DNA from: Tetradesmus obliquus
Taxonomy: Eukaryota > Chlorophyta > Chlorophyceae > Sphaeropleales > Scenedesmaceae
Length of the DNA: 64,000 nucleotides
Direction: 5' to 3'
Assembly: GCA_030272155.1 (NCBI GenBank)
Contig: CP126198.1
Coordinates: forward strand, 1,302,001-1,366,000
Shown: one piece after another, positions 29,144-58,854 of the stretch
Position numbering within the stretch: the first letter of the stretch is position 1
Layout: every line of letters begins with the position of its first letter
Notes under the pieces: generated by a model
The model's input: only the letters and a program-made list of their open reading frames with translations
The model's database searches: none
What the model was told of the DNA's origin: nothing
Made by a program: the position numbers and the translations under genes

Positions 29144-31584
29144 ATGGCACACGTTCCACCTCAGCTGATTGCTCTAGAAACAGCCTCAGAGACATTGCCG
29201 CCTGCTGAGGCCAGGCAGAGGAAGGGCAGGCGACAGGGGCGCAAGCACAAGCAGAGTCGCAGCAGGGGCAAGAGCAGCAAACATGGCAGTGCTGGGCTCC
29301 ATGAGCCAAGCCCCCATCTGGGGCTTCGGCTGTATCTGCTCGATCAGGATGATGAAGAGGAGGCCGAACAGCAACAGCTGCTGCAGGAACAGCAGCAACA
29401 GCAGCACCAGCAGCACCAGCAGGAGCAACATGAGCCTGAGCAGCAGCAGCAGCACATAGGTCTCCTGCAGGAACCACAAGAGCAGCAAAAGCAGCATGCT
29501 GAGGGTGTACAGCAACACCGCCTTGCCTGGCCAGCTGTGTTGCAGCAGCTGCCGCTGAATACAGCTGATGCAGTAGCAGCTGATGTGGTGCCTTCCTCAC
29601 TGCCTGATGATGAGAGGGCGAGTGAAGCCCTGCAGCTGCTCCTGCAGCCAGCAGCAGCTGCTGCTGCTGCTGCTGCAACTGCTGTGGTTGATGCTGCTTG
29701 TGATGTTGTTCCATGCTCTCTGGGTGGCTCATCAGACGGCAGCGGTGCAGCGGAACGTGCTGCTGCAGCAACCAAGAAGGCAGCAGACGCAGCAGAGGCA
29801 GCAGGCCACCCCATCCTTGATGAGGCATTCTCAAAGATGCCAGCAAGGTGGGAGTACCTCAGGGAAGTGCAGGAGATCAGACGCATGCAAAAGTTGAAAT
29901 ACGAGTGGGAGTTTAGTGCAGCTGTGGACAACATCAGCAGCTCGCACAAGGAGGCAGCAGCAAAGCGGCAGAAGAAGCAGGCAGCAGCTGATGCTAAGAA
30001 AGCATAAGCAGCGCCGGTTTCTCTGCAGCAGCAGGTAGAGGAGCTAGCAGCAGCAACAGCAGAGCAGCAGGTCAAAGGCCTGACCAGCTTGATGCTGAAG
30101 CAGCACGAGCGGATGGAGAAGCTGGAGGAGCAGCTGCTGAAGCAGCAGCACTCCAACAGCAGCAGCTCAGCAGCAGCAGCAGGAGCAGCAGCAGCAGCAT
30201 CTGGCAAAAAGAAGCAGCAGCGCAAGCCTAAGCAGAAGCAAGGCGATGCTGCTGTTGGCCAGGAGCCACCCGCAGGCAAGTCCTACCTCGCAGCAGCTGC
30301 AGCAGCACCTGCTGGCACCAGCAGTGGTAACCAGCAGCAACAGCAGCAGCAGCAGCAGCGCAACAACCAGCACCCAGCCCCACCCCCTGAGCAGCCGCCA
30401 AAGCAGCAGCAGCCGCCAAAGCAGCAGCAGCCGCCACAGCAGCAGCACAAGGGACACAGCAAGGGCAAGCCAAAAGGGCCACGCGGTGGTGCAGCAACCT
30501 ACAGCCGCACCGCAGCTGGCCAAGCGGCTGCATAGGGTGTTGGGCCATCAGAGGATTGCTGCCTGTCAGTACGCCAGCGCAAACACCACAGGCAGAAGCG
30601 CAGGGCACAACGGCAACGGCAGCAACAGCGTCTCCAAGCAACCAGGCAAGATGTGCAGGTGCCTCTTTCAGCCCTGCCCCCACTGCTGGGTGCTCATAAT
30701 TTGAGCAAAGCAGCATTTTCTCTGGATGCTTTGATGCTACTTAATAATGGTATTAAGTTTGTACCCACACCACCACGCGTTACGCGGCAACAGTTGGTTA
30801 CAGCTATACAACGTTTCCAACGTAGTGTTCGTTTGCGATGCATGTTTTAGGACACAGGTCCGCTCCCTAAGTACAGAGTAGCAAAGCCTGACTTTGTGCC
30901 CAAGGAAGCACCTCCAGCAGTGGAGGCATACCTGAGTGTGGTGGAGTCTGCTATTTTGACGCGTTTTGATGTTGTGTCACAGCAACATAAGCGCACCAGC
31001 AACTTGAGCACAGCTCAGGCTGCAGCATTACGTGTTTTTAGACAACAGTCTGAGCATGTGATTAAAGCCGCGGACAAGAACCTTGGTTTGTCACTCATGC
31101 ATGTTGATGGGTATCACACAGCAGTGCAAGTGCATGTGTCAGACAGCTCTGTTTATGAAGACATCACAGATCGTCTTTCAGCTGTCATTGCTTCCACCTG
31201 CAGGAAACTGGAAAGGTTGGTTGGCATTTACCATGGGTGTCTTGGGGACAAATTGTCAGAGTACTTGTTGCAGGGTTTGAAGATGAGGCAACCGCCACAC
31301 CTTTACATCTTGCCCAAACTGCACAAAATGGCTAGTTTGGATGGCCCTATTGTTGGCAGACCAATAGCTGCCTGTCATTCGTGGGTCACAACGTGTGTCA
31401 GTACTTGGTTGGCAGACGAATTAAATAGTCTGTTGCATGAGTATGACACAATACTCAAGGATAGAACGCAGTTGGTTAGGGAGATAGATGGGCTCCGAGT
31501 AAGCAAGGATGCCTGGCTTTTGACTTTCGATGTAGAGTCTCTTTACCCCAATATTGACCACGCTGGGTGCATTGCTGCATGTGC
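29144..31584 (+). pseudogene. Penelope-like retroelement, N-terminal half of reverse transcriptase ORF
   Basis: One frame runs from the ATG at 29144 to 31584, broken by TAA at 30005-30007 and TAG at 30533-30535 and 30848-30850. The first 500 codons are basic and Gln-rich. From about 30690 the Penelope-type signature starts: NLSKAAFSLD, GIKFVPTPPR, then HVIKAADKNLGLSLM, PHLYILPKLHK, GRPIAACHSW and LLTFDVESLYPNID, which is RT motif A with its catalytic aspartate. These are the N-terminal blocks of Penelope-like elements, distinct from LINE and LTR reverse transcriptases. The frame stops making sense at 31585, where a CACTA transposon begins; the second half of the same RT continues at 48056. 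The three stops and the insertion make this copy non-functional as written. All three stops are one C-to-T change from a glutamine codon. Confidence 0.85.
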
Positions 31585-31603
31585 CACTATGGCAAAAAGC
31601 ATC

Positions 31604-31690
31604 CACAGAATGTCCTCAACTCATCCACAAGCACCCCATTCAGCATCCACAGGAACATGCTGTGGATGGTACTTGCCCTGGCTTGTGGAA
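31604..31690. repeat. Left subterminal repeats of the large CACTA element
   Basis: Three to four CATCCACA words on the plus strand followed by two TGTGGA words in inverse orientation. Fewer copies than at the right end. Confidence 0.8.
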
Positions 31691-32158
31691 CAATGCAAGG
31701 AAGCCATTAGCCCCCCTCTCACTGCAAAAATATCTGGTCATACCATCTTACATTTAGTTTTTCAGGGGGAACATGAGCGGAGCTGCAGCTTCAGGATGCC
31801 TCCAGACACAGCAACTCACACATGATGTGGAAGCCATGCAAACCGCTTTTGCAAGTGCTCGGTGCAACATATGTGCATAAGCCAATGATTTCATGGTGGA
31901 TTTATGTCAGCATGAGGCAGACATGAAGTGGGCCTGTCAAGAGACCCCCACTGACTGTCAGTAACTAGTTACACTGCCCTTGCAGCATCCATCAGGAGGT
32001 CACACACATCCTAAGCCCACCTGCATATAATTTAGTTTTGATACCGCATCAATGTTGCTTTCGAGTGCGCAAGCACCCACTCTACTAGCTGCCGGCCTTC
32101 CCTCTGGTTCTCTGGCTCAGCTCTCACACGCCAGCTATGTGTATTCCGTGACGTGCTT

Positions 32159-32425
32159 ATGATTGAGAAAGGCGCCAAAGGCACCGAGTTTGACAAAGCT
32201 GTCGTCGTCTTTGACACAAACGGCAAGGAGTTGACGAGAAAATGTAGAAGGTGCCAGCGGCCAGACCCGCGGCAGAAAACGCAGTTCAACCTTTACCATG
32301 GCCCCGAAAAATGTCCCCTGGTCGATCCCGCACCTCGCAGCGCTCCGCAGGACATGGACGTGGACGCTGCAGCTGCAGGCGACAGTGAGGGTCCGGTTGC
32401 GGTGTCCTGCTTGTTGCAGCAGTAG
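32159..32425 (+). CDS. Possible zinc-finger exon at the start of the CACTA genes
   Basis: An open frame from ATG at 32159 reads GAKGTEFDKAVVVFD and then KCRRCQ, with FNLYHGPEKC some 15 residues later. The spacing C-x2-C then H-x4-C suggests a small zinc finger, as found at the N-terminus of transposon DNA-binding proteins. It may be the first exon of the Tnp2 gene or a separate small protein; I could not identify a splice donor that gives the phase required by the exon at 32634. Confidence 0.4.
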   Translation: MIEKGAKGTEFDKAVVVFDTNGKELTRKCRRCQRPDPRQKTQFNLYHGPEKCPLVDPAPRSAPQDMDVDAAAAGDSEGPVAVSCLLQQ

Positions 32426-32633
32426 TGGATAGAGCAGTTGATATGACAGAATGTGCCGTATGGTTATGTTCATATGTCATCAAGACTTGCTGCTCGGTGG
32501 TTGATCACCCTGCATAATGATGCTGGCAGCAACTGAGGCAGCCCCAACCCCTGCAGCATGCCTGTGCTTGTGCTTGTGCCGTGCATCCGACGGTTTTGCA
32601 TGCTTTCATGAAACCCGTTTTCAACTGCCTGCT

Positions 32634-35028
32634 AGGTGACATGCCGGAGGCAGGCCCACCCTCTGCTGCAGGCATCACAGCAGCAGCAGCAGCAACTGCA
32701 GCAGCAGCGCTGCTGGTACCTGCTGCTGGTGACGCTGCTGCAGCAGCAGGTACCAGCAGCGCTGCTGCTGCAGCAGCCGACAAAGACACTGCTGATGCAG
32801 CCGCTGAAGATGGTGAAGCATGGTTCGACGCCATAGAGGCATGGCCGACAGACGCTGACCAGCCATCGACGGCAGCTGATCGTGACCAGCCGCAGGCACC
32901 TGGCTCGACAACTGCTGAGCTGCGTCAGGCTCAAACGCTTGCTGTGGACCTGTACCAAGCAGAGTTCACAGAGGAAGAGATTGCCGCGCACTTGGGCGTA
33001 AGTGACCCAGCTGCTACCCTTGACTTTGACTTGAAGGTTTGGTACATGTTCGTCGCCTCATAGGGGCATGCAAGCAGGCGACAACAGCATGTGTCAGATA
33101 CTGTAGTCGAAGTTGCAGTGTGCCATCAATCATGCTGCAACATAGCTGTATATCCAGGCTGTTGCGTTGGCCCGCGTGTATAGCTGCTGCCCAGCCTTAT
33201 CCCCTGACAGTTGGTGGGTTCACTGGTGCCTTGCAGGAAGACCTGTACGCAGCGGTCTTGGCTACAATGCCAGGAAGTATCGCAGCAGCAGCTGGGTTTG
33301 GCCCACAGCAGCCGCAACAGGAGCAGTGGCTGCAGCAGCAGCAGCAGCAGCAGCAGCAGTCTCACCTGTGGCAAGATGAGGAAGAGCAGCAGCAGGAGCA
33401 GCAGGAGCAGCAGCCTGGTGCTGGCGATGAATGGGACAGCAGATCTGACAGCAGCAGCGACGCTGGCATGTCTGTATACCTCGAGGACGACGGCATGTCA
33501 GTGGATTTGCAGGATGAGGGGGCCAGCGTTGACCTGGGCGGTCCAGGTGCTACAGGCAGCAATGCTGACAGCAGCAGGGCGGAATGGTTCTGCAGCCACC
33601 TGACTGACCCACTCTGGGAAAGCCAGACGGAAACCAGCAAGCTGCTGATTTACCAAGCAGTGTTCATGCTCGTGGCATGGAAGATGGACCACTGCGTGCG
33701 CGATGCTGCCTTTGCTGCGCTGCTGGGCATGCTGTGCCAGTTGCTGCTGCCGCAGGTGAGATGATTGGCAGCAGTGAACGTGTATGCTATCACATGCTTA
33801 TTTTTTTGATTTGCACTGAAGCATGTTATGTAGGCTTGTACAGATTGCGATAGAGCGCACTACTCTGCAGACGCCAGCAGCCGGCATTGCTTCTCTGTAG
33901 TTGACTCATTCTGATTCTATGTGTCACATGCCGCGCTGTGTGTTGTGCCTGTTTGCCCGCAGGGCAACAACTTGCCGTCGTCGTACTACCTCATGAAGCA
34001 GGTCATGGAGGTGCGCGACATCAGCACCATTGAGTGGCACTCGTGCCAGGCCGGCTGCACCGGCTGGGAGCCAACGCCCAAGGAGCACTGGCACAAGCAC
34101 AAAGATGACTGCTGCAAGAAGTGCAACGGCAAGCGCTTCAAGACAGTGCTGGGGCGCTTGGTGCCTGTGCGGGTAAGTGGCACTTGCTATTGCTGAACTG
34201 TAGTACATGCTTGTTTTTGAGCTTGTCCGCAGTCTGCTGTTCGGCTGCAGCTGCTCCACAGGCCACTGATCGCTGCAATTCTCCGCTGCTGGTGTTAAGC
34301 GCAGTTGCATGTAAAGCTGTCCTCGACTGCATCCCACTTTCTTTTGATGTCTGTTGACAAGCCCTTTCTTTCTTGCTGGTGGCGATGATGGTGCTGCTGA
34401 CTGTTACGTTCAGCGCTTTTGGTTCGTCCTTCCAGAAGACAGCATCAAGGAGCTCATGGCAGATCCCGAATTTGTTGCTGCGCTCAAGTCTGCCAAGGTG
34501 CAACGTGTCGGCAGCTACTGGGCAAGTCCAGAGTTCAAAAGGTTGAACAAAGCAGTGGGCGGGGTGTTGACGAGCACCCTGCATGGAGTCATCGACCTAG
34601 GCTTTGACTTTGCGCAGCCGTACAACTTTGTGCAGCACTCCACCGGCCTGATGTTCATGCGGTGAGCTTGCAGCGCAATCAGCAAGCTGTGGGTACTTGC
34701 TAAGGGCAGTGCGCGCTGCTGGCCCTTTTACAGTTTGGTTTGAGCAGACAACATTGTTGCATTGTTTCCTTAGGAACCAACCTGATAAGTGAATAGTGTG
34801 CTGTTGCGATGCCTTGCAATGCCGATATGCAACATTCAACATCCTGATCTTGTTGACACTGCTACCAATGTGCAGGTACTGTGGCCTCCCAAATGGTATT
34901 TCAGCCCGCCGTGAGTGGCATAAGCTGGTGCTGTGCATCGAGGGTCCCACTGAGCCGACTGTGATGGACGCTTTCCTTGCACCGCTGACCAAGAGCCTGC
35001 TTCGTCTTGCCCCTGCAAAGCCAGCCAC

Positions 35029-35067
<39 letters not shown>

Positions 35068-35159
35068 CAATGCTGCTCGGCAACAGCCTGTAGCTGGGCC
35101 TCAGCATGTACAGCAGCAGCAGCCAGAAAGCGGACAGCATGCAGCAGCACCGTGTTGTG

Positions 35160-35190
<31 letters not shown>

Positions 35191-36918
35191 GCAAAAGCAG
35201 TCGGCCACCGATGAGGGTGAGTGCAGAAGCTCGTTCCATCACATTTACTGGCTCCTTCTCTTTCTCGTGCGTGCACGCAGCGCAACATCCAGCATGATGT
35301 TCTTGCATTCAGCTTGCACCACAGCTGCAACCGTGTGCCTGGTTCTTTCTATACTCGTTTGTGTTCTGTCTGTGTGATTTTCAATTATAATATGTACTGC
35401 CACTGACGAGCGTCATGCATGTTTCTGGTCCTGCAGAGCATGGCATTGAGGTCACACCGGCCACTCGGGACAGCTCAGGCAAGAGAGTCCTTGCGCAGGT
35501 CTTCAGGCACTTTGCTGTGCTTGGCGGCGTGTTTGCTGACTCCCCTGCCCGGGCCAAGCTCCAGTGCACCCACGCAAACTTCATCGCTTACTTTGCGTGC
35601 GCTTTCTGCAAGCTCATGGGCACCATGCGCCGCGGGGTGGTGCGGTTTCTGGGGTACTGCAGCCCTGTGCCAACAACTGCAGGTGCTGGCCAGGGCAAGA
35701 GCTTCCAAATGGGGCACAACGACGACCGCTTGCTGAATCCTCAGCAGCAGACTGCTCAAGGTATAGCAGCAGCTATGAACAGGTCCCGTGGCTTCAAGCC
35801 GCCTCCGGGCAACCGCTTCAAAGGCTGGAGCCTGCTGCTGCGTGACCTGTACTGGGTTCATCCGGCCCGCCTGTGGGTTGTCCCGTTCTGCCATGCATTC
35901 CACCTGGGTGTGTTCAAGAACTGGCTCAGCAAAGCCTTTGCCAAAGCAGAGCGCAAGGGTGCGCAGGTGCGTTGCTTATGACGTGACATCTCATCAGTGT
36001 TGGGCAGTGGCAGGTGGAGGCTGCAAACGTTCATTGTCATCATGTGTTGAGCTTTGCGCCACTTGCATGTGGCCAAATGGCTTTGTTGGCTGAACATTGC
36101 CACAGCGCATACCTGCTAGTAAAGTTGAGCGTGTTGTAACCAGAGCTGGCTCGCGCCTGTCGATGCGTGCGTGCAAGTGCCAGCGGTCTGTTTGCGCAAA
36201 CAGCTTGCATGCATGCATGCAGTCTGTTTGCATGCATGCGGCTCTGTAGAACTTGTGAATGGACCTACACTGTTATTTGGTGGCATGCTGATTTGGATGT
36301 GTGCCGCTGCCTGTCCTACAGGATGGAGACAACGACCCCGCCTCAAACCCCTTTCGCATCACCGAGTGGGGGCGCGAGGTGATCCGTGGCCGTCTACCTT
36401 CCACGACGCTGCACCCCAACTTCAACAGGAAGTTCCGCAACCCCTTCACCAGCAATGCCTCCATGCAGATTGAGGAGTGCAGCCGTGCGCTGCAGTGCCA
36501 CCTGCCCATGGTGTTCAGGCCTGTGCAGCGAGGCAACAAGCTGGAGGACGTGCTGCAGCCTGACCTCACCAAGAAGGCCTTTGGGCACTTGAAACGCTTT
36601 GCTGCCTTCCACCTTGGCCATGTGGGGTATGAGACCCATGCGGAGTACGTGGCCGCAGCCACGCGTGCCGGTCAAGAACTGCTAGAGTATGGCAAGCTGG
36701 TGGAGCAGGTGCGGGGTTGCAGTCATTGCATGCGCAGCTATGTAACTTGTGTTGCTGTTGTAGCAGTTGACAGATGCATGGGCAGGTAGTGCAGCACGTC
36801 ACCTTGCAAGCTGCCGCTGCATCGTGATGTGCAGTCGTAGGGCTCGGGTTGATGCAACAAGCAGTAGTCACAACTACGCAGTTGTATACGAACTGCTCAC
36901 GCATCTGAAACATTGCCC

Positions 36919-36953
<35 letters not shown>

Positions 36954-37876
36954 TGCAGTACTCGCGGGATGGGGAACTTTGCACCTACAACCTCCACCTG
37001 CTGGCGTGCCAGCTGACGGTGCAGTGCATTCAGCGCGGCAACACCTACGAGCAGTTTGAGCTCTGGGTGGAGCGCTTGGTCGGCGACTTCAAGCAGCGCG
37101 TCAAGCTGCGCACCCGCGCTGAGCCCGAGAAGACCATGGTGGGTGATGACATGGTGAGGCGGGCGCTGCAGCAGTGGCGTCTGCGGTATGCTGACCTGCA
37201 GACTTGGCAGGAGTACAGCGGCAAGGCCCCGCGCGGGCGACAGCACGTGATAGGTGATGAGGTCGGTCAGCTGCTTGGCGCAGGCAAACCAGCAGGCAGT
37301 GAAGTGTGGACGCAGCAGGTGCAGGATGCTGCTAGGAATGCAGTGGCCTGTAACATGGATGCTGTTGGTGGTGAAGATGAGCAGCAGTTGTGGCTGGATA
37401 ACTGGGGTGGTGTGACTGTGCGCTGTTACACAGAAGCGCTGCTGCCTGGCGGTTTCTATGCAACCAGCACAGCCCACTCAAGGTCACGCAGCAGGGACGG
37501 CAGCTTTGTTGTAGTGCCTTATGCTGTTGGTGATGACACCAAGCCATATGTGGGCCGTGTGAGCCGGTACCTGGAGATCTCGCTGCCTGCACCTGCCGTG
37601 CAGCAGTCACAGCGTGCTGGCGTGCTCTTGTTTGCGCTGTGTGATCTGCTGCCTTACAAGCGGCCGTATGAAGATAACGATATCTGCGGCCTTGACAGCA
37701 TGATTCTCTTTGGCAAAGATACCGGCAGCAGGGAGAGCACGTACCTCGACCTGGACTACCCAGTGTTGCTGAGCTGCATCTACGCGCCCGCATACAAGCA
37801 GCACTACACTGGCTCTGATGGCTGTGTGTGGTGGGCGTTTGTGCCTCTGCGCTTCAGGACTGGCGGCCGGCGCTGA
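32634..37876 (+). CDS. CACTA (EnSpm) Tnp2-family transposase
   Basis: Exons 32634-33036, 33237-33755, 33963-34172, 34414-34661, 34876-35216, 35437-35966, 36322-36708 and 36959-37876 join in phase; the start is probably further upstream. The protein should cut and join the CACTA ends. Motifs in the family order: a helical stretch YQAVFMLVAWKMDH leading to LLPQGNNLPSSYYLMKQVM, the Tnp2 N-terminal signature; a cysteine cluster (WHSC, GCTGW, CCKKCNGKRF) before VPVR; EWHKLVLCIEGPTEPTVMD, matching the GP-x-x-P block of plant Tnp2; a FADSPARAK block; and CTYNLHLLACQL followed by an acidic WVERLVGDFK segment, as in the DUF4218-like part. The last exon (YVGRVSRYLEI, then DLDYPVLLS) resembles the C-terminal domain that follows Tnp2 in plants. 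Gln runs interrupt exons 3 and 6. No stop or frame break was seen, so it may be functional. Confidence 0.85.
32702..32771. repeat. 27-bp inverted repeat in the first Tnp2 exon
   Basis: CAGCAGCGCTGCTGGTACC... and its reverse complement ...GGTACCAGCAGCGCTGCTG flank a short CTG-rich loop. They encode the alanine-rich stretches LLVPAAG and AAGTSSAA. Confidence 0.75.
36922..36957 (+). repeat. (CTG)n tract ending in the last Tnp2 acceptor
   Basis: About ten CTG units followed directly by TTGCTGCAG and exon 8. Together with similar tracts elsewhere it suggests CTG runs serve as the pyrimidine-rich part of introns here. Confidence 0.8.
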
Positions 37877-38389
37877 TTGTTACTGTGTGGTAACGTCTTG
37901 GGCTTGCCTATGCGCACAAGATATGCATTGCATGGGGAGGCTGGTGGATGCACTGATCAATGCGAGCTGTGCAATCCATGCATTGTCAGCTGCCTGACAG
38001 CGTGGCAGGCAGCCAACTGTACCATAAGGCTTTTTTGCATGACTTAATGTTGTACATTGTGCAGGGCTTCTTCCTTTGCTGATGCTTCGTGTGTTTTTGT
38101 TGTTACAGTTGAATTGAGTGCCCCAGTACATGGGATTATACTCATCTGCATCCAGTGACAACATGCGAGCGTGCAACAGCAATCGCTGTTGCTTTGTGCT
38201 GGCAGAGTACGGATGCACTTGTGTGGCACGTTTTGACTTTCGGGTCACACTGAAAAACAATCATGTATGTTGTACCTTGGCTTGAGGTGCGCGTGATACT
38301 TACAAACATGATGGAGCAGTGCTCCCTGCTGCTGCCGTTCTAGTGGGGCCTGGGCACGATGGCTCGATGGGCAACAGATTATGATGTTA

Positions 38390-38434
<45 letters not shown>

Positions 38435-38849
38435 GTTGACAAAGGAACTCTTTACCTGCTTATCTGACGTTACAAAACAAGGGACAGTCAATCAGTCAAC
38501 AGCCTGATGTCATCGCTGATCAGTGTAACACTGCTTATGCTGCCAGCATGGCATCCCGCAATGGTTCCCTGTTCAAGCAGTTGTAGAAGTGCTGCCAGTG
38601 ATGAAATGTTGCAGTACAACATCAAATTCTCATGGCGGGCCAGCCTGATGCTCCGCCGTGTGCTGCAATGCACAGAAGTGTTGGCAGGAGCGCTTGTACA
38701 GTTGAAAGCGCGGATGTAGCGTGTCAGACAGCATGCTACTAGCTAGTAGCTAGGCATTGCAGAAGCCTCGTGTTACAGCACAAGATCATAACCTATGCAA
38801 GCAACTTCCAACTTGTTTGAAAGGCTTCGTCAATTACTTGCAGTTGCAC
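37877..38849. other. Gene-free interval in the CACTA element
   Basis: No exon chain seen between the Tnp2 stop and the tandem array. Contains a (GAT)n microsatellite at 38391-38434 of about fifteen units. Confidence 0.5.
38391..38434. repeat. (GAT)n microsatellite
   Basis: About fifteen uninterrupted GAT units. Confidence 0.95.
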
Positions 38850-41800
38850 ACAGCGAGCAGAAGTTGAGCGCTGTGCATGCTGCTCTCCAAAGTGCTGCGC
38901 TCCAAACATCAATTACACAGCATGTTTGGTGGCCTGGCGATTGAAGCAGTGGGCCAGCGCTGGCAGCCGATGACGGCGCTAGGCAAACTGCTGTCTCAAC
39001 TGCAGGAGCTGCAGGCAGCAATGATCATCTGCTTTGGTGAAGCACGCAGCGCAAGCGCAGGCAACTGCCTCTCAAGGCCCCTGCTTGCTCACACAATCTG
39101 CTGCTGCTGCCTGCTGTGCACACCTGCAAGACAACAGCCGCTGTGACACAGACAGCCGGCAGCGCAGCAGGCATGCGTGGCATGCCATCAAACATGCTCA
39201 CAATCAACAGCGCCTGCAGCAAATCAAAGGCGAAGGCAGCCTGCGCTGCGCAAACTGGTGTCCCGACTGCAGGAGCTGAAGGAAGCAAGTATCATTTGCC
39301 GTGGTGAAGCACGCAGCGCAAGCGCAGGCAATTGCCTTTCAAGGCCCCTGCTTGCGGCGCGTTTGTTTGCGCACACAATGTGCTGCTGCTGCCTGCTGTG
39401 CACACCTGCAAGACAACAGCCGCTGTGACGCAGACGGCCGGCAGCGCAGCAGGCATGCGTGGCATGCCAGCAAACATGCTCACAATCAACAGCGCCTGCA
39501 GCAAATCACAGGGGAAGGCAGCCTGCGCTGCGCAAACTGGTGTCTCGATTGCAGGAGCTGAAGGCGGCAATGATCATCTGCTGTGGTGAAGCACGCAGCG
39601 CAACCGCAGGCAACTGCCGCTCAAGGCCCCTGCTTGCAGCGCGTTTGTTTGCGCACACAATGTGCTGCTGCTGCCTGCTGTACACACCTGCGAGACAACA
39701 GCCGCTGTGACGCAGACGGCCGGCAGCGCAGCAGGCATGCGTGGCATGCCAGCAAACATGCTCACAATCAACAGCGCCTGCAGCAAATCACAGGGGAAGG
39801 CAGCCTGCGCTGCGCAAACTGGTGTCTCGATTGCAGGAGCTGAAGGCGGCAATGATCATCTGCTGTGGTGAAGCACGCAGCGCAACCGCAGGCAACTGCC
39901 GCTCAAGGCCCCTGCTTGCAGCGCGTTTGTTTGCGCACACAATGTGCTGCTGCTGCCTGCTGTACACACCTGCGAGACAACAGGCGCTTACACACAGGCG
40001 GCCGGCAGCGCAGCAAGCATGCGTGGCATGCCATCAAACATGCTCACAATCAACAGCGCCTGCCGCAAATCACAGGGGAGGGCAGCCTGCGCTGCACAAA
40101 CTGGTGTCTCGATTGCAGGAGCTGAAGGCGGCAATGATCATCTGCTGTGTTGAAGCACGCAGCGCAAGCGCAGGCAACTGCCTTTCAAGGCCCCTGCTTG
40201 CGGCGCGTTTGTTTGCGCACACAATGTGCTGCTGCTGCCTGCTGTGCACACCTGCAAGACAACAGCCGCTGTGACGCAGACGGCCGGCAGCGCAGCAGGC
40301 ATGCGTGGCATGCCAGCAAACATGCTCACAATCAACAGCGCTGTGGCGCTAGCGCCTGCAGCAAATCACAGGGGAAGGCAGCCTGCGCTGCGCAAACTGG
40401 TGTCTCGATTGCAGGAGCTGAAGGAAGCAAGTATCATCTGCTGTGGTGAAGCACGCAGCGCAACCGCAGGCAACTGCCGCTCAAGGCCCCTGCTTGCAGC
40501 GCGTTTGTTTGCGCACACAATGTGCTGCTGCTGCCTGCTGTACACACCTGCGAGACAACAGGCGCTTACACACAGGCGGCCGGCAGCGCAGCAAGCATGC
40601 GTGGCATGCCATCAAACATGCTCACAATCAACAGCGCCTGCCGCAAATCACAGGGGAGGGCAGCCTGCGCTGCACAAACTGGTGTCTCGATTGCAGGAGC
40701 TGAAGGCGGCAATGATCATCTGCTGTGTTGAAGCACGCAGCGCAAGCGCAGGCAACTGCCTTTCAAGGCCCCTGCTTGCGGCGCGTTTGTTTGCGCACAC
40801 AATGTGCTGCTGCTGCCTGCTGTGCACACCTGCAAGACAACAGCCGCTGTGACGCAGACGGCCGGCAGCGCAGCAGGCATGCGTGGCATGCCAGCAAACG
40901 TGCTCACAATCAACAGCGCTGTGGCGCTAGCGCCTGCAGCAAATCACAGGGGAAGGCAGCCTGCGCTGCGCAAACTGGTGTCTCGATTGCAGGAGCTGAA
41001 GGAAGAAAGTATCATCTGCTGTGGTGAAGCACGCAGCGCAACCGCAGGCAACTGCCGCTCAAGGCCCCTGCTTGCAGCGCGTTTGTTTGCGCACACAATG
41101 TGCTGCTGCTGCCTGCTGTACACACCTGCAAGACAACAGCCGCTGTGACGCAGACGGCCGGCAGCGCAGCAGGCATGCGTGGCATGCCAGCAAACATGCT
41201 CACAATCAACAGCGCCTGCAGCAAATCACAGGGGAAGGCAGCCTGCGCTGCGCAAACTGGTGTCTCGATTGCAGGAGCTGAAGGCGGCAATGATCATCTG
41301 CTGTGGTGAAGCACGCAGCGCAACCGCAGGCAACTGCCTCTCAAGGCCGCTGCTTGCGGCGCGTTTGTTTGCGCACACAATGTGCTGCTGCTGCCTGCTG
41401 TACACACCTGCGAGACAACAGGCGCTTAGTCACAGACGGCCGGCAGCGCAGCAAGCATGCGTGGCATGCCATCAAACATGCTCACAATCAACAGCGCCTG
41501 CCGCAAATCACAGGGGAAGGCAGCCTGCGCTGCACAAACTGGTGTCTCGATTGCAGGAGCTGAAGGCGGCAATGATCATCTGCTGTGGTGAAGCACGCAG
41601 CGCAAGCGCAGGCAACTGCCTTTCAAGGCCCCTGCTTGCGGCGCGTTTGTTTGCGCACACAATGTAGTGCTGCTGCCTGCTGTGCACACCTGCAAGACAA
41701 CAGCCGCTGTGACGCAGACGGCCGGCAGCGCAGCAGGCATGCGTGGCATGCCAGCAAACATGCTCACAATCAACAGCGCTGTGGCGCTAGCGCCTGCAGC

Positions 41801-42810
41801 AAATTACAGGGGAAGGCAGCCTGCGCTGCGCAAACTGGTGTCTCGATTGCAGGAGCTGAAGGAAGCAAGTATCATCTGCTGTGGTGAAGCACGCAGCGCA
41901 ACCGCAGGCAACTGCCTCTCAAGGCCCCTGCTTGCAGCGCGTTTGTTTGCGCACACAATGTGCTGCTGCTGCCTGCTGTACACACCTGCAAGACAACAGG
42001 CGCTTAGACACAGACGGCCGGCAGCGCAGCAAGCATGCGTGGCATGCCATCAAACATGCTCACAATCAACAGCGCCTGCAGCTAACCACAGGCGAAGGCA
42101 GCTTGCGCTGCGCAAACTGGTGTCCCGACTGCAGGAGCTGAAGGCAGCATCATTTGCCGTGGTGAAGCACGCAGCGCAAGCGCAGGCAATTGCCTTTCAA
42201 GGCCCCTGCTTGCGGCGCGTTTGTTGGCGCATACAATATGCTGCTGCTGCCTGCTGTGCACACCTGCAAGACAACAGCCGCTGTGACGCAGACGGCCGGC
42301 AGCGCAGCAGGCATGCGTGGCATGCCAGCAAACATGCTCACAATCAACAGCGCCTGCAGCAAATCACAGGGGAAGGCAGCCTGCGCTGCGCAAACTGGTG
42401 TCCTCTCAACTGCAGGACCTGAAAGAAGCACTGATAATCTGTTGTGGTGAAGCACGCAGCTTCAGCGCAGGCAAGACCACTGCTTGCGGCACGCCTGCTT
42501 GCACACACATTCTGCTGCTGCTGCCTGCTGTACACACCTGCGAGACAACAGCCGCTGAGACACAGACGGCCGGCAGCGCAGCAGGCATGTTTGGCATGCC
42601 AGCAAACATGCCCACAATCAACAGCGCCTGCAGCGAAACACAGGCGAAGGCAGCCTGCGCTGCGCAAAGTGGTGTCTCAACTGCAGGAGCTGCAGGCAGC
42701 AATGATCATCTGCTTTGGTGAAGCCACGCGAGCACAGGCGAGGCCGTTGCTTGCGGCGCGCCTGCCAGACAACAAATGCTGATCACTGGCAGCGCAGCAA
42801 GCAATCACGG
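38850..42810 (+). repeat. Tandem array of 282-base units inside the CACTA element
   Basis: The word GTGAAGCACGCAGCGCA or a close variant occurs near 39038, 39304, 39586, 39868, 40150, 40446, 40728, 41024, 41306, 41588, 41884, 42161, 42447 and 42719. Spacing is mostly 282 bases; units ending near 40446, 41024 and 41884 are 296 because of a 14-base insertion GTGGCGCTAGCGCC-like. The outermost units are most diverged and the central ones nearly identical, the usual pattern of unequal exchange. Two successive 578-base dimers (39868-40446 and 40446-41024) are almost the same. Each unit contains the palindrome GGCATGCGTGGCATGCC-like. Units are multiples of three long, so all frames look open; I do not regard them as coding, though words like LVSRLQELKAA recur. 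Confidence 0.9.
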
Positions 42811-43456
42811 CGTGCCTCAAAACACTATTCAGCTGCAAAGAGCTGGCCCATTCACATCCTGCACTCTGCACAGAATGCACACCAGCAGGTCGCGTCACAC
42901 AGCTTACCCACTCAAAGACATGCGGACCCGACAGGCTGCCAAAGAACTTGCTTCCAGTGGTGTTTGCTTTGCCTGTACCACCCAGCTATGTATACCACCG
43001 TGGCCACCTTCAACACAAGTGAGCTCACTGCTCGCGAGCAGCTGCTGATGTCGGTTTTGAAAATACAGAAACAAGCAGGCACCAAGTCAAGGTGGCATAC
43101 TAGCTGTACGTACAGTACAAGTAATAGTTATCTGGTAGTGGTACTGTGCGCACTGGTGGTACTGTGAGCACTAACAGAGAGGCGCTATGGACTCGGAGCA
43201 GAACAGCAGTTGCCAGCTGCTCGTGCTGGTAGTCTAGCGGACATGAGTTAGCTGCTACCTGCGCCAAGTCCATAATATTATTGGGCCATGATAAATAAAT
43301 AGGTGTAAACTGACCAGATAACTCTTCCTATGATCTGTTTTTCAAATGTGGGGTTCACGCTGTTGTAACAGCTGTCCAGACCCTTCCTCCAGACGTTGCG
43401 TCCAAGTACACTGACAGCGAGATGTGGGATTCTCAGCAGCCATCGCATCACGCCAT
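42811..43456. other. Gene-free interval in the CACTA element
   Basis: No exon was supported between the tandem array and the ATG at 43457. An upstream exon of the next gene may lie here. Confidence 0.4.
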
Positions 43457-45891
43457 ATGGATGAAACCATCGCAGACGTTGCTCTTGGGGCTGCTGCTCG
43501 GGGCAACCATGCAGCAGACACAGTCTACATAACTGAGGTCAAGATCTGCGCAGGCAAAAAGTTTGAAACCGTTGGAATCGTTAGATTCGGCAAATCGAGC
43601 GAGGCGCTGGCCGCTGCCTTTTACAGGAACGTGAACCTGGCCTTCGGTGGCCTCTGCACGCAGCTGGGTTTGGAGAACACGGCGCCGCAGTCGCTCAGAT
43701 TGCGCAAAGGCGGTCCCATCGTAGACAAGGAGGTGTTGGCCGCGTTGGTGCATGAGGCAGACGCTGACAGCTGCCGCGCCCACGGGTTCACAGTCGAGGA
43801 CACCACGCTGGTGATCTGGGCAGATGTTCCCACAGGTGAATACTGCCGGTGCTTTCAGGCTAAAATCAGCAGGGATGGTATGAACACCTTGACTGCAGGA
43901 TGCGGCGTTTGACTTCACGTCTTGTCGCGCAGGTGCAACAGTCAGCAGTGGTGCAGGCAACAGCAGGGGCAGCAGGCAGCAGCGCGCCTCTGGCAGCAGC
44001 AGCGGTGGCGGTGGCGGTGGCGATGGCAGCATGCTCTCCGCATCTTCTATCACAAGGAAGCTGCAGCAGTACTGGGCAAAGCGAACACACACTACGCTCG
44101 TGAGTGGTGTACAGGTTTCGTGCAGCTAGTGTACAGCTAGCGTATGCTTGCACGTGCTCTGCAGGTTTATGTTGGTGTTCTCCAAACATGGAAAACCTGA
44201 TGGCAACATGTTATGTGATTTGACACATACTCAATGTGTGACGATGGGTATATAGTTGGGCATCATGCACGGTGACATATGCCTGCGCAGGAGGAGGATA
44301 GCATGCTATCATGATCAGCTGCCAGGATAAATGAACGCATGTATTTTAGCAGCAGCTTCGTCATCCTCGGAGCTGATCATTATGATAATGGAAGTTGGTG
44401 ATAGCGTGCATGGTTTGAATAAGAACGGTTGAGGCTCAGCATGCTGTCCGATAAGCAGCACATCATGTTGGGCTACCCTGCAAGTTTGTGTTCACTGTTG
44501 CAGGTGTACCGGGTGCACAACGCTGAGACAGACACGACACAGGAGCTCACCGCCAGCAGCCTAGAAGAGGTGCCCGAGCTTGGCACACCTGGCGTTGAAC
44601 TGGTATGGAAAAAGTGCCGCATCAAGGGCCAGATGCTGGCTCCCACCTGCGCAACAACGGATGAGCAGTGGCCCGACATGGACACGTGCTGCGCACAGAT
44701 CGCCTTCAAGATGAACTCCAACAAGGACATCAGTGGCTGGAAGGAGCACTTCGAAAGGCAAGTGTTTGCTGCCAGATGCAGCTGCAGGTGTGAGCGGATG
44801 GGCAAGGGTACGGGCTACAGGACAGCACTGATAGCCGACTCTGTTGGCTGGCAGGCAGCAGAAGCGTGCTACATATGCTTCCATGTACCTGACGATATCA
44901 CTCAGCACATCAGCATCTGCATACTCAGTATACTCACCCACACTTGCGAAAAACTTGTGATATACTACTGTTCACACTGCTTTTTTAGGGTTTCAATGAT
45001 GCTGCAATCGCTGCTGAACACTCCGACAAACCATGCAGGACGCGCAAGCAGCAGTCCAGGGAGGTGCTCAACTCCATGATGAAGGAGTACGACCCCGACT
45101 GCGAAGTCGGCAAGTGCGCGCCGCTAGGGAAGGCGGAGGAGGGCGCCGACAGCTGGCGCGCAGCGTTTGGCAACTTATACAATGCGCGCCACCAGAAGGA
45201 CGGCTCCAGCAGCAAGCTGCCTGCTCCACTCGTGCGGCTGCACCAGCTCTACTACAACCGGGACAGCTCTGCAGGCCAGGGCACAGTGTCAGGCAGTGGC
45301 GGCTCAGTCGGCTCTAGACAGGTAGATCTGCAGGAGCGGAGTATCTCTCGCTGTAGAATAGATCGGAGGGAGTCGCCTGCCGGTGCTTGTTCATTGCTAA
45401 AGAGCAAAAGCACAGTATGTGCGTTTGGTTTCTGCCATGCTTGATGGCAACGTTGCGCAACGTTATAACTAGCCTTGACAGCAGCAGCATATCCCTGATC
45501 ATCACAACGTTACGCTACCTACCTCACTGGCTTGGTCGAGTGTTGCGTTCAAGAGCGCTTGCTATCATGTAGCAGACTGCTCAGTGTTAACAGCCATATA
45601 TCACAAGTGTTGAACATTTTGCAGCATACTGCTTCTATCATTGTCACTGCTGTGCAGGGCCGCCGCTTCTCACAGCCACCTTTCCCTGTAATCGGGGGTG
45701 TGGAGCGCGCAGCAGGAGCAGCAGCAGAGGCGCCAGGGCCGGACAGCGGGCAAGAAGATGCTGGTATGCTGCTGGATGTGTCCGCGTTTGCAGCGACGCA
45801 GAATGACACCGGCACGCAGGCAGGCGCAGCAGCAGGTGCAGAAGCAGGGGGTGATGCTTTGACTCCTAGCAGGCGTTCTGCCAGGCTTGCA

Positions 45892-45926
<35 letters not shown>

Positions 45927-46224
45927 CTATGGGGATGGTGCGCCGGCAGCAACAGTATTAGGAGGAAGAGGTGCAGACGCAGCAGGTGATGATGGCTTGA
46001 CTCCTGGTAGGCGTTCTGCCAGGCTTGCAAGCCAGCTGCAGCAGCCGCAACAGCAGATGCAGCATGAGCGTGGTGCGCAGGCAGCAGCAGCGGCAGCATC
46101 ATCATCATCATCAGCAGCAGAGAGGGGTGCAGATGCGGGAAGGGATCACGCAACCCCTAGCAGGCCTGGCAGGCATGCAAGCCAGCTGCAGCAGCAACAG
46201 CTTGGGGACGGTGTACAGGCAGCT

Positions 46225-46261
<37 letters not shown>

Positions 46262-47294
46262 AAGCTGAAGATGATGGCGCGTCTAGGCGCTCCAGCAGAC
46301 TAGCATCGCAGCAGCAGCGGCAGCAGCAGCTGGCAGCAGCAGCAGCAGCAGCAGCAACGCCTGCACCGCCCAACACTGCTGCTGCCCGTGAGCAGGGTGC
46401 TGCTGAGTTTGCAGATGCTTTGCAGTACAAGGAGGTGCTGGAGAATTCTGGGTTCTCTCCTAGCTCTGTCAAGACACTGCTGGTAGAGAACATGGGGGTG
46501 AGCTTGCCTTGTCAACGTATGATCAAAGAAATTGCAGCTGGATGTTGTGTTGTGGACAGTATTGCACAGTCATGAGTTGGTTGCATTGGGAGCAATTTTG
46601 GCGCTTTGCTGCGGATGCGGATGCAAGGTATTTGTAGGCCGTGGCATTCGTCTGCATCTGATTCAAGTGCATGTTATGTCCCTGTTGTCGTGCAGGTGCG
46701 CACCTGCACTGCAGGTCCTATGCTTGGGCACATGCTACCTGCTTGTGAACAACATAAACCAGCCATGCATGCATTTTTACGTGGTATCTTCACCATGTCA
46801 TCATCAACCCTGTTTCACTGTTGTGCTGGCTGTTGCGACTGCTGCTGCAGGCTGCCTTAGCTGCTGCTGTTGAGGCTGGTGTGCCGCCAAGCGACAAGCA
46901 GATTGCCCGCCCGCCAGGTGCCGAGAAGCCAGTCGGCCGTCTGCCGCGTGACACAGGGGGTGGTGCAGGCAAGCCTGAGGGCAGGCGCAAGAAGGCCGGC
47001 GGCAAGGGCGGCAAGGGCAAGGGCGGCAAGGGCGGCAAGGGCGGCAGTGCAGGTGGCAGCAAGGGCCGGAAGCGCAAGCTGTCGGATGAGGACAGTGCTG
47101 AGTTGGGTGGGGGCAGCAGCAGTGATGATGGATGGGGATCCGGTGGTGCAGCAGACGGCAGCGAGGAGGAGGAGGAGGATGCAGCTAACAGTGGGGATGG
47201 GGATAGCGAGCTGCAGGAGGAAGCATCAGATGGTGCAGCAGCGGAGGCAGCAGCAGCTGAGTGCGAGCTGCAGGAGGCAGCAGTATGTGGTGCT

Positions 47295-47329
<35 letters not shown>

Positions 47330-47405
47330 TGCAGCAACAGGAGAAGTGGAAGACGGATCCAGGGCGAAGCGAGCACGTATGAAGCCAGCGAGGCTTAGGG
47401 ACTAA
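43457..47405 (+). CDS. Second CACTA-borne gene, TnpA-like position, basic C-terminus
   Basis: Exons 43457-43835, 43933-44099, 44504-44757, 45039-45321, 45658-46497 and 46851-47405 join in phase. Intron 3 (44758-45038) has a GC donor (AAG/GCAAGT) and a normal AG acceptor; no GT donor gives the right phase. The N-terminus (DTVYITEVKICAGKKFETVG) and the third exon (ELVWKKCRIKGQMLAP) match no family I know. Exon 5 contains three to four imperfect repeats of the word LTPSRRSARLARQ separated by Gln and Ala runs, a possible repeated basic DNA-contacting motif. The last exon is Lys/Gly-rich (GGKGGKGKGGKGG), then KGRKRKLSD, a likely nuclear signal, an acidic stretch and a basic end RAKRARMKPARLRD. The place in the element and the basic repeats suggest a subterminal-repeat-binding partner of Tnp2, but this is inference. 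The ATG is uncertain. Confidence 0.55.
45895..46345 (+). repeat. Imperfect repeat of an SRRSARLA-Gln block in exon 5
   Basis: Blocks reading SRRSARLARQ, GRRSARLASQ, SRPGRHASQ and SRRSSRLASQ, each followed by a CAG run and an Ala-rich stretch, recur every 100-150 bases. They look like internal duplications of a coding module, with CAG expansion at each copy. Confidence 0.7.
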
Positions 47406-47876
47406 GCGGAGGAGTCTGTGCGGCACATACATTTGAACATGCTATTGTACAGCTAGTGTGTGTATTGTGGAGCATCAGCGCAAGCACATGCAGGGTGTGC
47501 CTGGAGGGATGTCTGGCAGACGTACCTTGTGATATGAACAGTTGACATGGTTACATGTTGTGGACACTGCATTGCTTTGCACTTCACCCCAAGCATGCTG
47601 TCCTCTGTCTTAATGTGGCAGCAGGAGGGATGACATGCATGCTGGCTGCTGCTGCTACTGCTGCTTGTTGTCCTTTGGTATCAACATCAGCATGGACTAC
47701 CAGCACATGTTGATATCCTTTATTATCATCCTGCAGATGCAGCATCAGCGGCGATGGCATGCTAGCAGCTGCAGCTGCTGCTGCTCGCTGTGCTCGCGTA
47801 CGGGCACAAGCTCGACGGAACATTATTTACAACTCATATATTGTATATGTAAACGTGTTTAAGCAGTGATTCGAGG
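47406..47876. other. 3' flank of the second CACTA gene
   Basis: No gene supported. The 3' untranslated region of the gene ending at 47405 should lie here. Confidence 0.4.
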
Positions 47877-47886
47877 CTCATTTGCA

Positions 47887-48035
47887 CAATCCACAACATG
47901 ATCCACACGCGATCGAGGCTTATCCACAACGGTTGTGGACCGTTCCGGTTGTGGACGGCCTTGTGGACGGCCCTAGCCCGTTGTGGATGGCTTGTGGATG
48001 GTCTGCTGTGGATGACTTGTGGATGATTTGTGGAT
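47887..48035. repeat. Right subterminal TGTGGA array of the large CACTA element
   Basis: Three ATCCACA words followed by about nine TGTGGA words, spaced 8-20 bases. The orientation switch near 47930 (CCACAACGGTTGTGG) makes a short palindrome. The array ends 17 bases from the element terminus. Confidence 0.85.
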
Positions 48036-48055
48036 TTGCTTTGACCATAGTGTGC

Positions 48056-48949
48056 AGCAGCAGTTCATGGCACTGGCATGCGCCGTGCAATGGTTGCAGA
48101 GCTTTTAGAGTTTGTGTTGAAGAACAATGTAGTCACTGTGCAAGGCAAGTACTACAGGCAGATTTTTGGAGGTGCAATGGGCACCAACTGCATGCCACCA
48201 GCAGCACAGCTCTACCTGGCTAGGGAGTGGGAAGGCATTGCCAAGCAACGCCTAGGCAGCGACTTCCCTTCTCTGTACAAGCGTTTTATAGATGATGGAT
48301 TTGTGGTCCTTGAGGGCAGCAAGCAGAAAATGCTTGAGTTCGTACGTTTGCTCAACACATTGTTGCCAAACATTAGGATTACATACAGCTGCAGCCAGTT
48401 TGAGGTAGAATTTTTCTTGACTTGGTTGTTTATAAGTGCATGGAGGATGTCTGCGATGCAGATGGCAAAGTGCGTCTCAAAGTGCGCACTCACCAAAAGG
48501 CACTGAACAAGTACCTTTACATCCCGCACTACTCATTCCATCCTCCTAGTGTGTTTAGGAGCTTCATCAATGAAGAGTTGATCCGGTATGTTGTCACTAA
48601 TAGTGACGAACACTGGTTTGACTGCATGGTGCGCAAATTTGTGCACCGGCTACGCCAGAGGGGTTATCCTCAGCGTCTGCTAGCCAGCATCACCAATCGA
48701 GTGTCGTTTTCACAGCGGCACCAGTACCTGTCTGCCAGCAGCAGCAGCAAAGCTGCAGCTGCAAGCAGCAAGTCTGTCATGGTGGTGCCATATGCACAAC
48801 TCATGCCTGAATTGCAGCTGCAACAGCTGCTACGGGATGCATATGTGAATGGCGGTGGGGATCTGCATACTTTGGTACCAGAAAGACCAATTGTTGCATT
48901 CACAAAAAGCAGGAACCTGGGGTCATTTCTAGTGAAGGCCAGTCACTGA
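48056..48949 (+). pseudogene. Penelope-like retroelement, C-terminal half of reverse transcriptase
   Basis: Starts directly after the CACTA target duplication and reads MVAELLEFVLKNN, then GKYYRQIFGGAMGTN (RT motif B region), YKRFIDDGFVV (motif C with the DD catalytic pair) and LPNIRITYSCSQFEVEF. A frame break lies at the TTTTT run near 48410-48415: after it the next frame continues LDLVVYKCM, as the family expects. It proceeds through KYLYIPHYSFHPP and a thumb region to the Penelope-typical SRNLGSFLVKA and a stop. No GIY-YIG endonuclease follows, so it is either an endonuclease-lacking type or has lost that domain. Together with 29144-31584 it forms one element. The frame break, three stops and the CACTA insertion make it a pseudogene. 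Confidence 0.85.
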
Positions 48950-48955
48950 CTGGCC

Positions 48956-49099
48956 GTTTTTGGGTGAGGTCACTGGCCATGTTGCCAGTGGCTCTCACCC
49001 TGTGTTTATCACCAACGCCTCATGGTTTGCTCTTTTGCAGTGCAGTTATGTACAGGGTTCGAGCCACTGGCAACATGGCCAGTGACCTCACCCAAAAAC
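48956..49099. repeat. Perfect 39-bp inverted repeat after the RT stop
   Basis: 48956-48994 is the exact reverse complement of 49061-49099 (first arm starts GTTTTTGGGTGAGG, second ends CCTCACCCAAAAAC), with a 66-base loop. It begins seven bases after the RT stop codon. Perfect identity over 39 bases suggests a recent foldback insertion, or a structure that is maintained in the 3' region of the retroelement. Confidence 0.92.
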
Positions 49100-49165
49100 C
49101 TGCACCCTGCTGTGTGTTCGCACTGATGGCGGGTATTTGTTGGTTCGGTCTGTTTGCACAGGATT

Positions 49166-55559: not shown

Positions 55560-56013
55560 AAGGGGCCGATCTCTCTCTGCCCCTGTGCAACTTTCCACAA
55601 AATCTCCCTGACTTTTGGTGGTGACCATCTTGCAGACGTGTGTTGGTCTGCACGCTCTGGCACGCACTGATGTGAGCCGGGTCTGCTACATCGTTATACA
55701 CCAGGGGTGATGATGGTGCTGTGGCCCCATGACCATGGCAATGGTGGCAGCCGCCACATGATGTGGTGCTGGTGTCAGCTGCTGCTGGCAGGGCACATCA
55801 TGCCCCTGACAACTTTCCACAAATTCTCCCTGGTTTTTTGTGGTGACCAGCTTGCGTCAACGTGTGTTGGTCAGCACGCTCTGGCAAACATCGATGTGAC
55901 CCGGGCTTGCTACATCGTTATACACCAGGGGTGATGATGGTGCTGTGGCCCCATGACCATGGCGATGGTGGCAGCCGCCACATGATGTGATGGTGGTGTC
56001 AGCTGCTGGCAGG
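55560..56013 (+). repeat. Two-copy direct repeat of about 224 bases
   Basis: CGTGTGTTGGTC at 55637 recurs at 55861, and the flanking blocks CAACTTTCCACAAA (about 55591 and 55812) and GGTGATGATGGTGCTGTGG (about 55706 and 55931) recur in the same order. The second copy passes directly into the satellite that follows. Confidence 0.85.
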
Positions 56014-58545: not shown

Positions 58546-58605
58546 TGTCTTCAGCCTGCTGCCGCTTGTAAACAAGCAAGTGGTTGTCAGTGCCCAGGCA
58601 GAATA

Positions 58606-58850
58606 CTACGAGTAGCTAGTAGCTAGTGGCTGGCTGGCTGGCTAGCTAGCTAGTCCTACTGCTAGCGCTGCCAGGGCAGGCGGGTAAGTAACAGTTGGCA
58701 GCGTTAGAGCTGGCTGGCTAGTAGCTAGTAGCTAGTAGCTGGTTGGCTTGCTGGCTGGCTGGCTGGCTAGTGGCTAGTAGCTAGTAGGTAGTAGCTAGTA
58801 GCTGGCTGGCTGGCTAGTAGCTAGTAGCTAGCGCTGCCAGGGCAGGCGGG
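58606..58850. repeat. GCTAG/GGCT low-complexity spacer
   Basis: Runs of GTAGCTAGTAGCTAGT and GGCTGGCTGGCT with two copies of GCTGCCAGGGCAGGCGGGT. It separates the two satellites. Confidence 0.9.
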
Positions 58851-58854
58851 TGTG

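Follow-up and report, generated by a model that had tools for sequence, protein, structure and literature searches.

A divergent, probable CACTA (EnSpm) transposon family of the green alga Tetradesmus obliquus and the insertion of one copy into a presumed Penelope-like retroelement

CACTA (EnSpm) DNA transposons of plants are characterized by CACTA ends, a 3-bp target site duplication (TSD), a multi-exon DDE transposase and a second open reading frame (ORF) of unassigned function, and algae are among their cited hosts (PMC4158355). The putative autonomous CACTA element Tgmt* of soybean reaches 20.5 kb (PMC2613891), and the CACTA-like Jozin elements of Chenopodium contain captured satellite DNA (PMC8978399). 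For the TRC/Transposase_21 proteins of animals and fungi, among them SmTRC1, a defined order of conserved motifs has been reported (PMC1636069). The present analysis concerns a 16.5-kb element in a window of 64,000 nucleotides from Tetradesmus obliquus (GenBank assembly GCA_030272155.1, contig CP126198.1, forward strand), corresponding to C8:1302001-1366000; coordinates refer to the window unless prefixed by a contig. Its CAG/CTG-rich exons and GT-AG introns are in keeping with a green-algal origin.

With high confidence, this element represents an autonomous-type CACTA (EnSpm) DNA transposon which inserted into a now-degenerate, presumably Penelope-like retroelement and duplicated 3 bp of the target (Table 1). 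It starts with CACTATGG at 31585, finishes with CCATAGTG at 48052 and is flanked by TGC on either side; the terminal CACTA...TAGTG inverted repeats show identical end bases in copies elsewhere. A preceding reading of the DNA by sequence alone (the sequence-only reading) had named these ends and the TGC/TGC flanks, both of which can be read directly; its boundaries are right, while its span of 31582-48055 takes in both TSD copies and the exact element covers 31585-48052. Likewise borne out is its claim that the frame of the interrupted reverse transcriptase (RT) is kept without the element: removal of the element and one TGC in silico yields a single open RT frame over the junction. Two paralogues found elsewhere in this genome, L063 on C9 (38 % identity, 518-aa ORF) and L064 at C8:5009729 (43 % identity), align with the joined RT across this junction, with one 2-residue gap at this place (YPNIDHAGCIAAC--AAAVHGTG in the window RT versus YPSINNAEAVAACRDAVAVAKST in L063). 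An assembly artefact or a chance pair of CACTA-like ends could in principle mimic such an insertion, considering the dense repeats in this region, an array which might mislead assembly and a simple estimate that expects CACTATGG about twice per 64 kb with both strands counted. This explanation is, however, extremely unlikely, as the same end pair delimits copies at 13 further sites, of which 12 show a matching 3-bp TSD of their own, and the paralogous RTs continue straight across the insertion site.

Table 1 Features of the CACTA element and of the interrupted reverse transcriptase (window positions)
Feature	Position	Strand	Remarks
Left part of interrupted, presumably Penelope-like RT	30536..31584	+	In-frame TAG at 30848; paralogues
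Left TSD copy, TGC	31582..31584	.	Sequence
CACTA element, 16,468 bp	31585..48052	+	CACTATGG...CCATAGTG ends; other copies start and stop at the same bases
5' terminal/subterminal region	31585..31884	+	Terminal inverted repeat CACTATGG; 6 TCCACA/TGTGGA motifs
Short ORF MIEKGAKG...	32159..32425	+	CxxC...HxxxxC pattern; ORF scan
Tnp2-like transposase gene, 8-exon model, 1193 aa	32608..37876	+	Open, splice-consistent (GT-AG)
Tnp2 exons 1-4	32608-33036, 33237-33755, 33963-34172, 34414-34661	+	
Tnp2 exons 5-8	34876-35216, 35437-35966, 36322-36708, 36959-37876	+	
Tandem array	38976..42765	+	282-bp units (some 296)
Gene 2, tentative 5-exon model	43457..47405	+	Low-complexity C-terminal half
Gene 2 exons	43457-43810, 44504-44787, 45039-45321, 45658-46497, 46851-47405	+	
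3' terminal/subterminal region	47753..48052	+	11 TCCACA/TGTGGA motifs; CCATAGTG
Right TSD copy, TGC	48053..48055	.	Sequence
Right part of interrupted, presumably Penelope-like RT	48056..48949	+	Frame change near 48404; paralogues

Copies were searched in the own genome (104.7 Mb, 17 contigs), where all end-match counts are lower bounds and include the window copy. At least 23 matches were obtained with the 5' 816 bp of the element and at least 40 with its 3' 656 bp. Matching 3-bp TSDs, each with a chance probability of about 1/64, flank 13 of the 14 copies that could be paired at both ends and to which this count is restricted (window included; TGC, GTG, TGA, TAG, TTT, TTG, CAG, TTT, AGG, GAT, CTG, CAT and GTG). 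A near-identical second copy is one of 17,003 bp on C5, which shares 99.7 % identity with the window copy outside the array (34 mismatches in 12,648 aligned bases, 23 in 7,380 to the left and 11 in 5,268 to the right of it), differs by 11 gaps mostly in triplet repeats and possesses the longer array. In a 3.3-kb copy on C17, 730 bp remain at the left end (100 %) and about 2,600 bp at the right (99.3 %); the near-identity at both retained ends points to a recent internal deletion. In seven copies (L003-L008 and L010), Tnp2 is skipped and the 5' region is fused directly to the 282-bp array at element position 1032 (1001 in L007); L006 lacks a paired 3' end, and L010 is part of an interrupted copy on C15. 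Five of the seven copies agree base for base at the fusion, where some 2 bp of microhomology can be discerned by eye; the junction search string was absent from the other two (L004, L007). One founding deletion with subsequent transposition would explain the common junction. In addition, five copies of 2.9 kb, 85-99 % alike, form a derivative family that has in common with the element its first 85 and last ~288 bp together with three stray matches of 53-55 bp; a match to Tnp2 was not found in this family. The 3' end of the element is also matched at 74-77 % by 23 further places. The CACTA family is genuine and, judged from its sequences, apparently recently mobile; the sequence-only reading, right about the element itself, had missed this family structure of two Tnp2 copies, Tnp2-skipping array copies and 2.9-kb derivatives. 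It had likewise missed how far the transposase departs from the Pfam model and that related families also have arrays behind Tnp2.

Two further arrangements of related elements were noted. The copy on C6 (L004/L031, C6:5561998-5597254, 35 kb) harbours two long array blocks, and a CCATAGTG end abuts its left end, perhaps owing to nested or tandem elements. Within the window, a second related CACTA-type element of about 2.8 kb lies in opposite orientation at 16968-19803, with CACTATGG / CCATAGTG ends, TAT/TAT as TSD and a 3' end (at 16968) which resembles the corresponding end of the main element at 75 %.

Subterminal repeats in both orientations, as known for CACTA/EnSpm elements, are concentrated at the termini: 17 of the 24 TCCACA/TGTGGA motifs of the element locate in its two 300-bp ends. 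Behind the 5' terminal region, a short ORF connects to the next exon by only weak splice sites and is possibly either a 5' exon of Tnp2 or the gene of a separate small protein.

The complete Tnp2 gene claimed from the sequence was recovered as a complete-looking, open eight-exon model, which is also open in the C5 copy. Exons 2-8 are supported by alignment of the relative L057, other relatives covering fewer exons; exon 1 and the start codon are without support from relatives. A search with most of the spliced model as query gave 60 exon matches (52 of 89 candidates scored), in which the Tnp2 of the window itself is confined to the copies on C8 and C5. Relatives of about 64 % identity are present on C16, C7 and C14, one of 46 % at C8:5577433, and eight of 48-49 % at C2:7123510, C11:3160505, C11:5180259, C12:4174839, C13:2106588, C7:4981316, C16:4367510 and C5:6522019. 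Because the search scores of these eight are the same or nearly so, they are probably near-identical and hence the product of a recent burst. The distant relative L060 (C8:1268000-1270900, match at C8:1268783; 24-28 %) comprises an uninterrupted 717-aa ORF and sits about 31 kb to the left of the window. Across 851 codons (66 % identity), comparison of the window Tnp2 with L057 revealed a pN/pS of 0.40 and a dN/dS of about 0.25, an estimate limited by a dS of about 1.1, i.e., near saturation; these values are indicative of purifying selection on Tnp2.

Alignment of four proteins (window, L057, L058 and L060) revealed the motif order reported for Transposase_21 (PMC1636069). Fixed in all four are a first D (G-x-DF; GFDFAQPY or like) followed by GP, a second D (DSP or DSA; ADSPARAKL or like) followed by CxxC, VPxxHAxxLG and then H(3)C (NLHLLAC or like), and an E (W-V/I-E; ELWVERLVG or like) with PE further on; P-L after GP is restricted to two of the four (window and L058). 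By these motifs, a putative DDE triad of D451, D617 and E926, with CxxC between the second D and the E, can be assigned. A supposed loss of the catalytic D at VPFCH was considered and dropped, since the second D belongs with the CxxC domain (ADSPARAKL...CAFC; PMC1636069).

Several observations weigh against the assignment to CACTA. With respect to insertion, the empty site that the sequence-only reading had proposed to look for was not found in the own genome, the left flank is single copy, and the 35-kb C6 copy, one of the 14 two-ended copies, is without matching TSD. The CACTATGG pair was also not recognised around the Tnp2 genes on C16 and C2 in the stretches fetched. At the protein level, the D of L/V/I-D-x-L/M-H-x3-L-G is replaced by P in all four proteins, a G behind the first D and a later W-P, both given in PMC1636069, are absent, and H(3)C stands in place of the H(3-4)H described in PMC12730594, a correspondence that is our own reading. 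Pfam model PF02992 (cut-off 28.6 bits) stayed below its cut-off wherever scanned: 12.3 bits were obtained on one of ten single stretches in one scan and 12.4 bits on one of seven in another, both matches covering overlapping profile positions in two family members, and nothing on the spliced Tnp2 or the 717-aa relative. The unrelated FAM60A outscored PF02992 with 20.9 bits on the glutamine-rich ORF that gave 12.3 bits, and scores of about 12 bits are therefore near noise. A genome-wide search with PF02992 was empty, with its controls equally silent. Beyond Pfam, neither the C-terminal exon nor the 717-aa relative matched a solved structure, PADLOC gave nothing for the latter and plasmids no match; among viral contigs, 28 stretches fit a pattern, none of which encodes a relative. 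Because such a cut-off probes how far the model extends and not how the protein folds, membership is based on ends, TSD and motifs. Of the Tnp2 similarity anticipated by the sequence-only reading, the CACTA-like motifs are thus present while the PF02992 scores fall short, and the protein is best described as a putative divergent Tnp2, assigned by motifs and element structure without a curated match.

The low PF02992 scores, together with the P-x-x-H-x3-LG and H(3)C variants fixed in the four aligned proteins, would also suit a DDE lineage adjacent to EnSpm that shares CACTA ends and 3-bp TSDs and either resembles Plavaka, Chapaev or Transib or forms an algal branch of its own, the more so as PMC12730594 groups Plavaka and Transib with EnSpm in a wider group. 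Such a lineage is nevertheless unlikely, considering the CACTA...TAGTG ends and 3-bp TSD (CAC..GTG ends and 3-bp TSDs being grounds for EnSpm in PMC12730594), the subterminal repeats, the CxxC after the second D and a motif II with GP, which according to PMC1636069 is found only in plant and fungal CACTA proteins. Ends, 3-bp TSDs, subterminal repeats and the order of the transposase motifs agree with the CACTA element originally claimed.

The second gene named by the sequence-only reading was recovered as a tentative five-exon model. Gene 2 has 45 matches in the genome, every one at a place with at least the 3' end of the family, and no Pfam family scored above cut-off in its residues 1-327 or in ORFs over exons 1, 2 and 4. 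Codon positions were compared in six copies, including the one on C5. Exons 1-3 display 25, 31 and 28 differences at codon positions 1, 2 and 3, i.e., no third-position excess. The modelled exon 3 is rich in indels, which shift the frame in five of the six copies, and may be incorrect; one copy aligned there over only 79 of 283 bases. Exon 4, fully aligned in two of the six copies, shows 17, 7 and 22 differences at the three positions, and the lengths of many indels in exons 4 and 5 are divisible by three, which hints at constraint on gene 2; exon 5, poorly aligned in three of the six copies, was left out of the counts. The evidence for selection is accordingly mixed, with none in exons 1-3 and a hint in exon 4. 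The array-bearing, Tnp2-skipping copies might be taken for the functional family, with gene 2 as key product and the Tnp2-bearing copies as composites, given that gene 2 occurs at more places than the Tnp2 of the window and that the bias of exon 4 and the triplet indels of exons 4 and 5 hint at constraint. This alternative is very unlikely in view of the missing third-position excess in exons 1-3, the frameshifts in exon 3, the purifying selection seen on Tnp2 and the single deletion junction of five derivatives, which indicates descent from a Tnp2-bearing form.

A 4-kb tandem array, as claimed from the sequence, is present in the form of 3.7 kb of 282-bp units (12.9 copies at 39085-42744, determined with TRF). 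Genome-wide, the unit is matched 224 times, and the matches listed all fall into the C8, C5, C10, C4, C6 and C15 copies of the family. Regions downstream of Tnp2 were inspected in the window family and in the 49 %, 64 % and 46 % families, leaving out C14 and the 28 % relative. Arrays were also detected in the 49 % family (C2; unit of 282 bp, at least 6.2 copies, 99 %), the 64 % family (C7; 298 bp, at least 6.5 copies, 99 %) and the 46 % family (C8; 345 bp, only 2.5 copies, 87 %), at 0.97-2.0 kb 3' of Tnp2. The second locus of the 64 % family, on C16, revealed no array within the 6.8 kb read downstream; its close likeness to C7 stops 1,024 bp past Tnp2. In total, an array follows Tnp2 in four of four families and at four of five loci (C5 not counted separately), and arrays also occur within a Tnp2 intron in two of the families. 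Among outer flanks used as control, 1 of 46 carries an array with a period of at least 150 bp; these flanks measure 1.5 kb and are thus shorter than the downstream stretches of 3-7 kb inspected at the Tnp2 loci. One of two RT paralogue loci run alongside the controls contains a 351-bp, 2-copy array, and further complex arrays with units of 153-331 bp at 55578-61336 of the window indicate that arrays are not rare everywhere.

The array units of 282-345 bp share no significant similarity between families, with nothing at 1e-3 in array-versus-array comparison. The best pieces reached E values of 0.007 (46 % family versus window, 34 nt) and 0.015 (C2 versus C7); for the window versus the 49 % family, the best blastn E value was 0.46, and the rotated global alignment scored 24, the highest score among 30 triplet shuffles being 20. 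Homology of the arrays across families is not supported, this last comparison representing a marginal excess only. A tentative proposal, possible rather than probable, is that the divergent Tnp2 branch keeps a satellite with units of ~280-350 bp at a distance of 1-2 kb behind the transposase gene, with the sequence of the unit exchanged from one family to the next; it is held at this level because of the unequal length of the control flanks. If true, position and unit size of the array would be kept and its sequence not, as if it served as a spacer, chromatin boundary or recombination tract, and the element would be a nursery making new satellites repeatedly.

Nesting in a Penelope-like RT, the further claim of the sequence-only reading, agrees with the RT halves on either side and with paralogues continuous across the site. 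The halves contain FDVESLYPNI, GGAMG and FIDDGF, and paralogues are present in the own genome. The RT is presumably Penelope-like, a label taken from its RT motifs and from the view of the earlier reading. Apart from the insertion, it is damaged by an in-frame stop and a frame change (Table 1); the host Penelope-like element (PLE) is older and degenerate. Pfam and PDB provided no support for either RT half or for the RT paralogue, the PDB search with the paralogue returning a single meaningless match (E 0.9). The ribozyme attributed to this PLE was rejected: Rfam detected no family at gathering score anywhere in the window and no hammerhead among 85 sub-threshold matches in 24000-56000, thus failing at gathering and E-value thresholds alike, and a simple hammerhead-core scan retrieved one CTGANGA...GAAA string, at 49171, which is devoid of a proper helix II and whose surroundings fold no better than shuffles. 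Directly past the RT stop, a long hairpin-forming inverted repeat is visible by eye at 48955-49101 and draws sub-threshold Rfam matches to the plant microRNA precursors MIR839 and MIR842.

Elsewhere in the window, positions 1136-4110 and 7766-10743 form a 2,978-bp inverted repeat, 99.7 % identical, with arms 3.7 kb apart and ORFs in both.

From these features, a cut-and-paste mechanism can be proposed. The Tnp2-type DDE transposase would recognise the CACTATGG ends, while the transposase itself, gene 2 or the product of the small 5' ORF would bind the TCCACA/TGTGGA subterminal repeats; the transposase would then excise the element and insert it elsewhere by way of a 3-bp stagger. Elements without Tnp2, i.e., the copies with an array (11-16 kb, and 35 kb in one case), the 3.3-kb deletion copy and the 2.9-kb family, would be mobilised in trans. 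The array would be carried DNA, growing and shrinking by unequal exchange or slippage.

A literature search under open licence showed nothing on this CACTA family among the titles and abstract openings listed, Repbase and papers under other licences lying outside the search. The kind of element is already known, and neither size, algal host nor a satellite within a CACTA element is new: the sequence-only reading correctly held CACTA elements to be known in green algae, with algae already cited as hosts (PMC4158355), whereas its claim of novelty by size does not stand next to the 20.5-kb soybean element in print (PMC2613891). As far as the searches reach, novelty lies in the family, in its divergent branch of Tnp2 and in dissimilar arrays recurring at the same position. 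The locus thereby offers a base-exact, apparently recently mobile CACTA family of a green alga, with autonomous-type, deletion and short derivatives in one 17-contig assembly. As the Pfam model for Tnp2 misses this transposase branch, such elements may be under-annotated in algae.

Compared with plant CACTA/EnSpm elements (PMC4158355), the present one shares CACTA ends, 3-bp TSD, a multi-exon DDE transposase and a second ORF of unassigned function, as well as subterminal repeats and deletion derivatives; it differs by a transposase too divergent for PF02992, by the long internal array and by a gene 2 whose scanned parts are without Pfam relative. In common with Tgmt* (PMC2613891) are the very large autonomous-type structure, a tnp2-type transposase, terminal inverted repeats and subterminal repeats, whereas Tgmt* is inserted in a gene and its transposase has recognised tnp2 and TNP1 domains. 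SmTRC1 and other TRC/Transposase_21 proteins of animals and fungi (PMC1636069) display the same D ... G ... D with CxxC and H-x3-L-G; the proteins described here deviate by P instead of D before x-L/M-H, by GP as in plants and fungi and by the absence of W-P. The host copy resembles Penelope-like elements in its RT motifs and differs by its degeneration and by a ribozyme not being found. With Jozin (PMC8978399), the element shares a satellite array inside the element near the 3' end; there, the satellite is reported as an addition to some elements, whereas in the present case all four families examined have an array downstream of Tnp2, with units lacking significant similarity to each other. 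Unlike satellites at one place in related transposons constitute a testable case for the origin of new satellite DNA.

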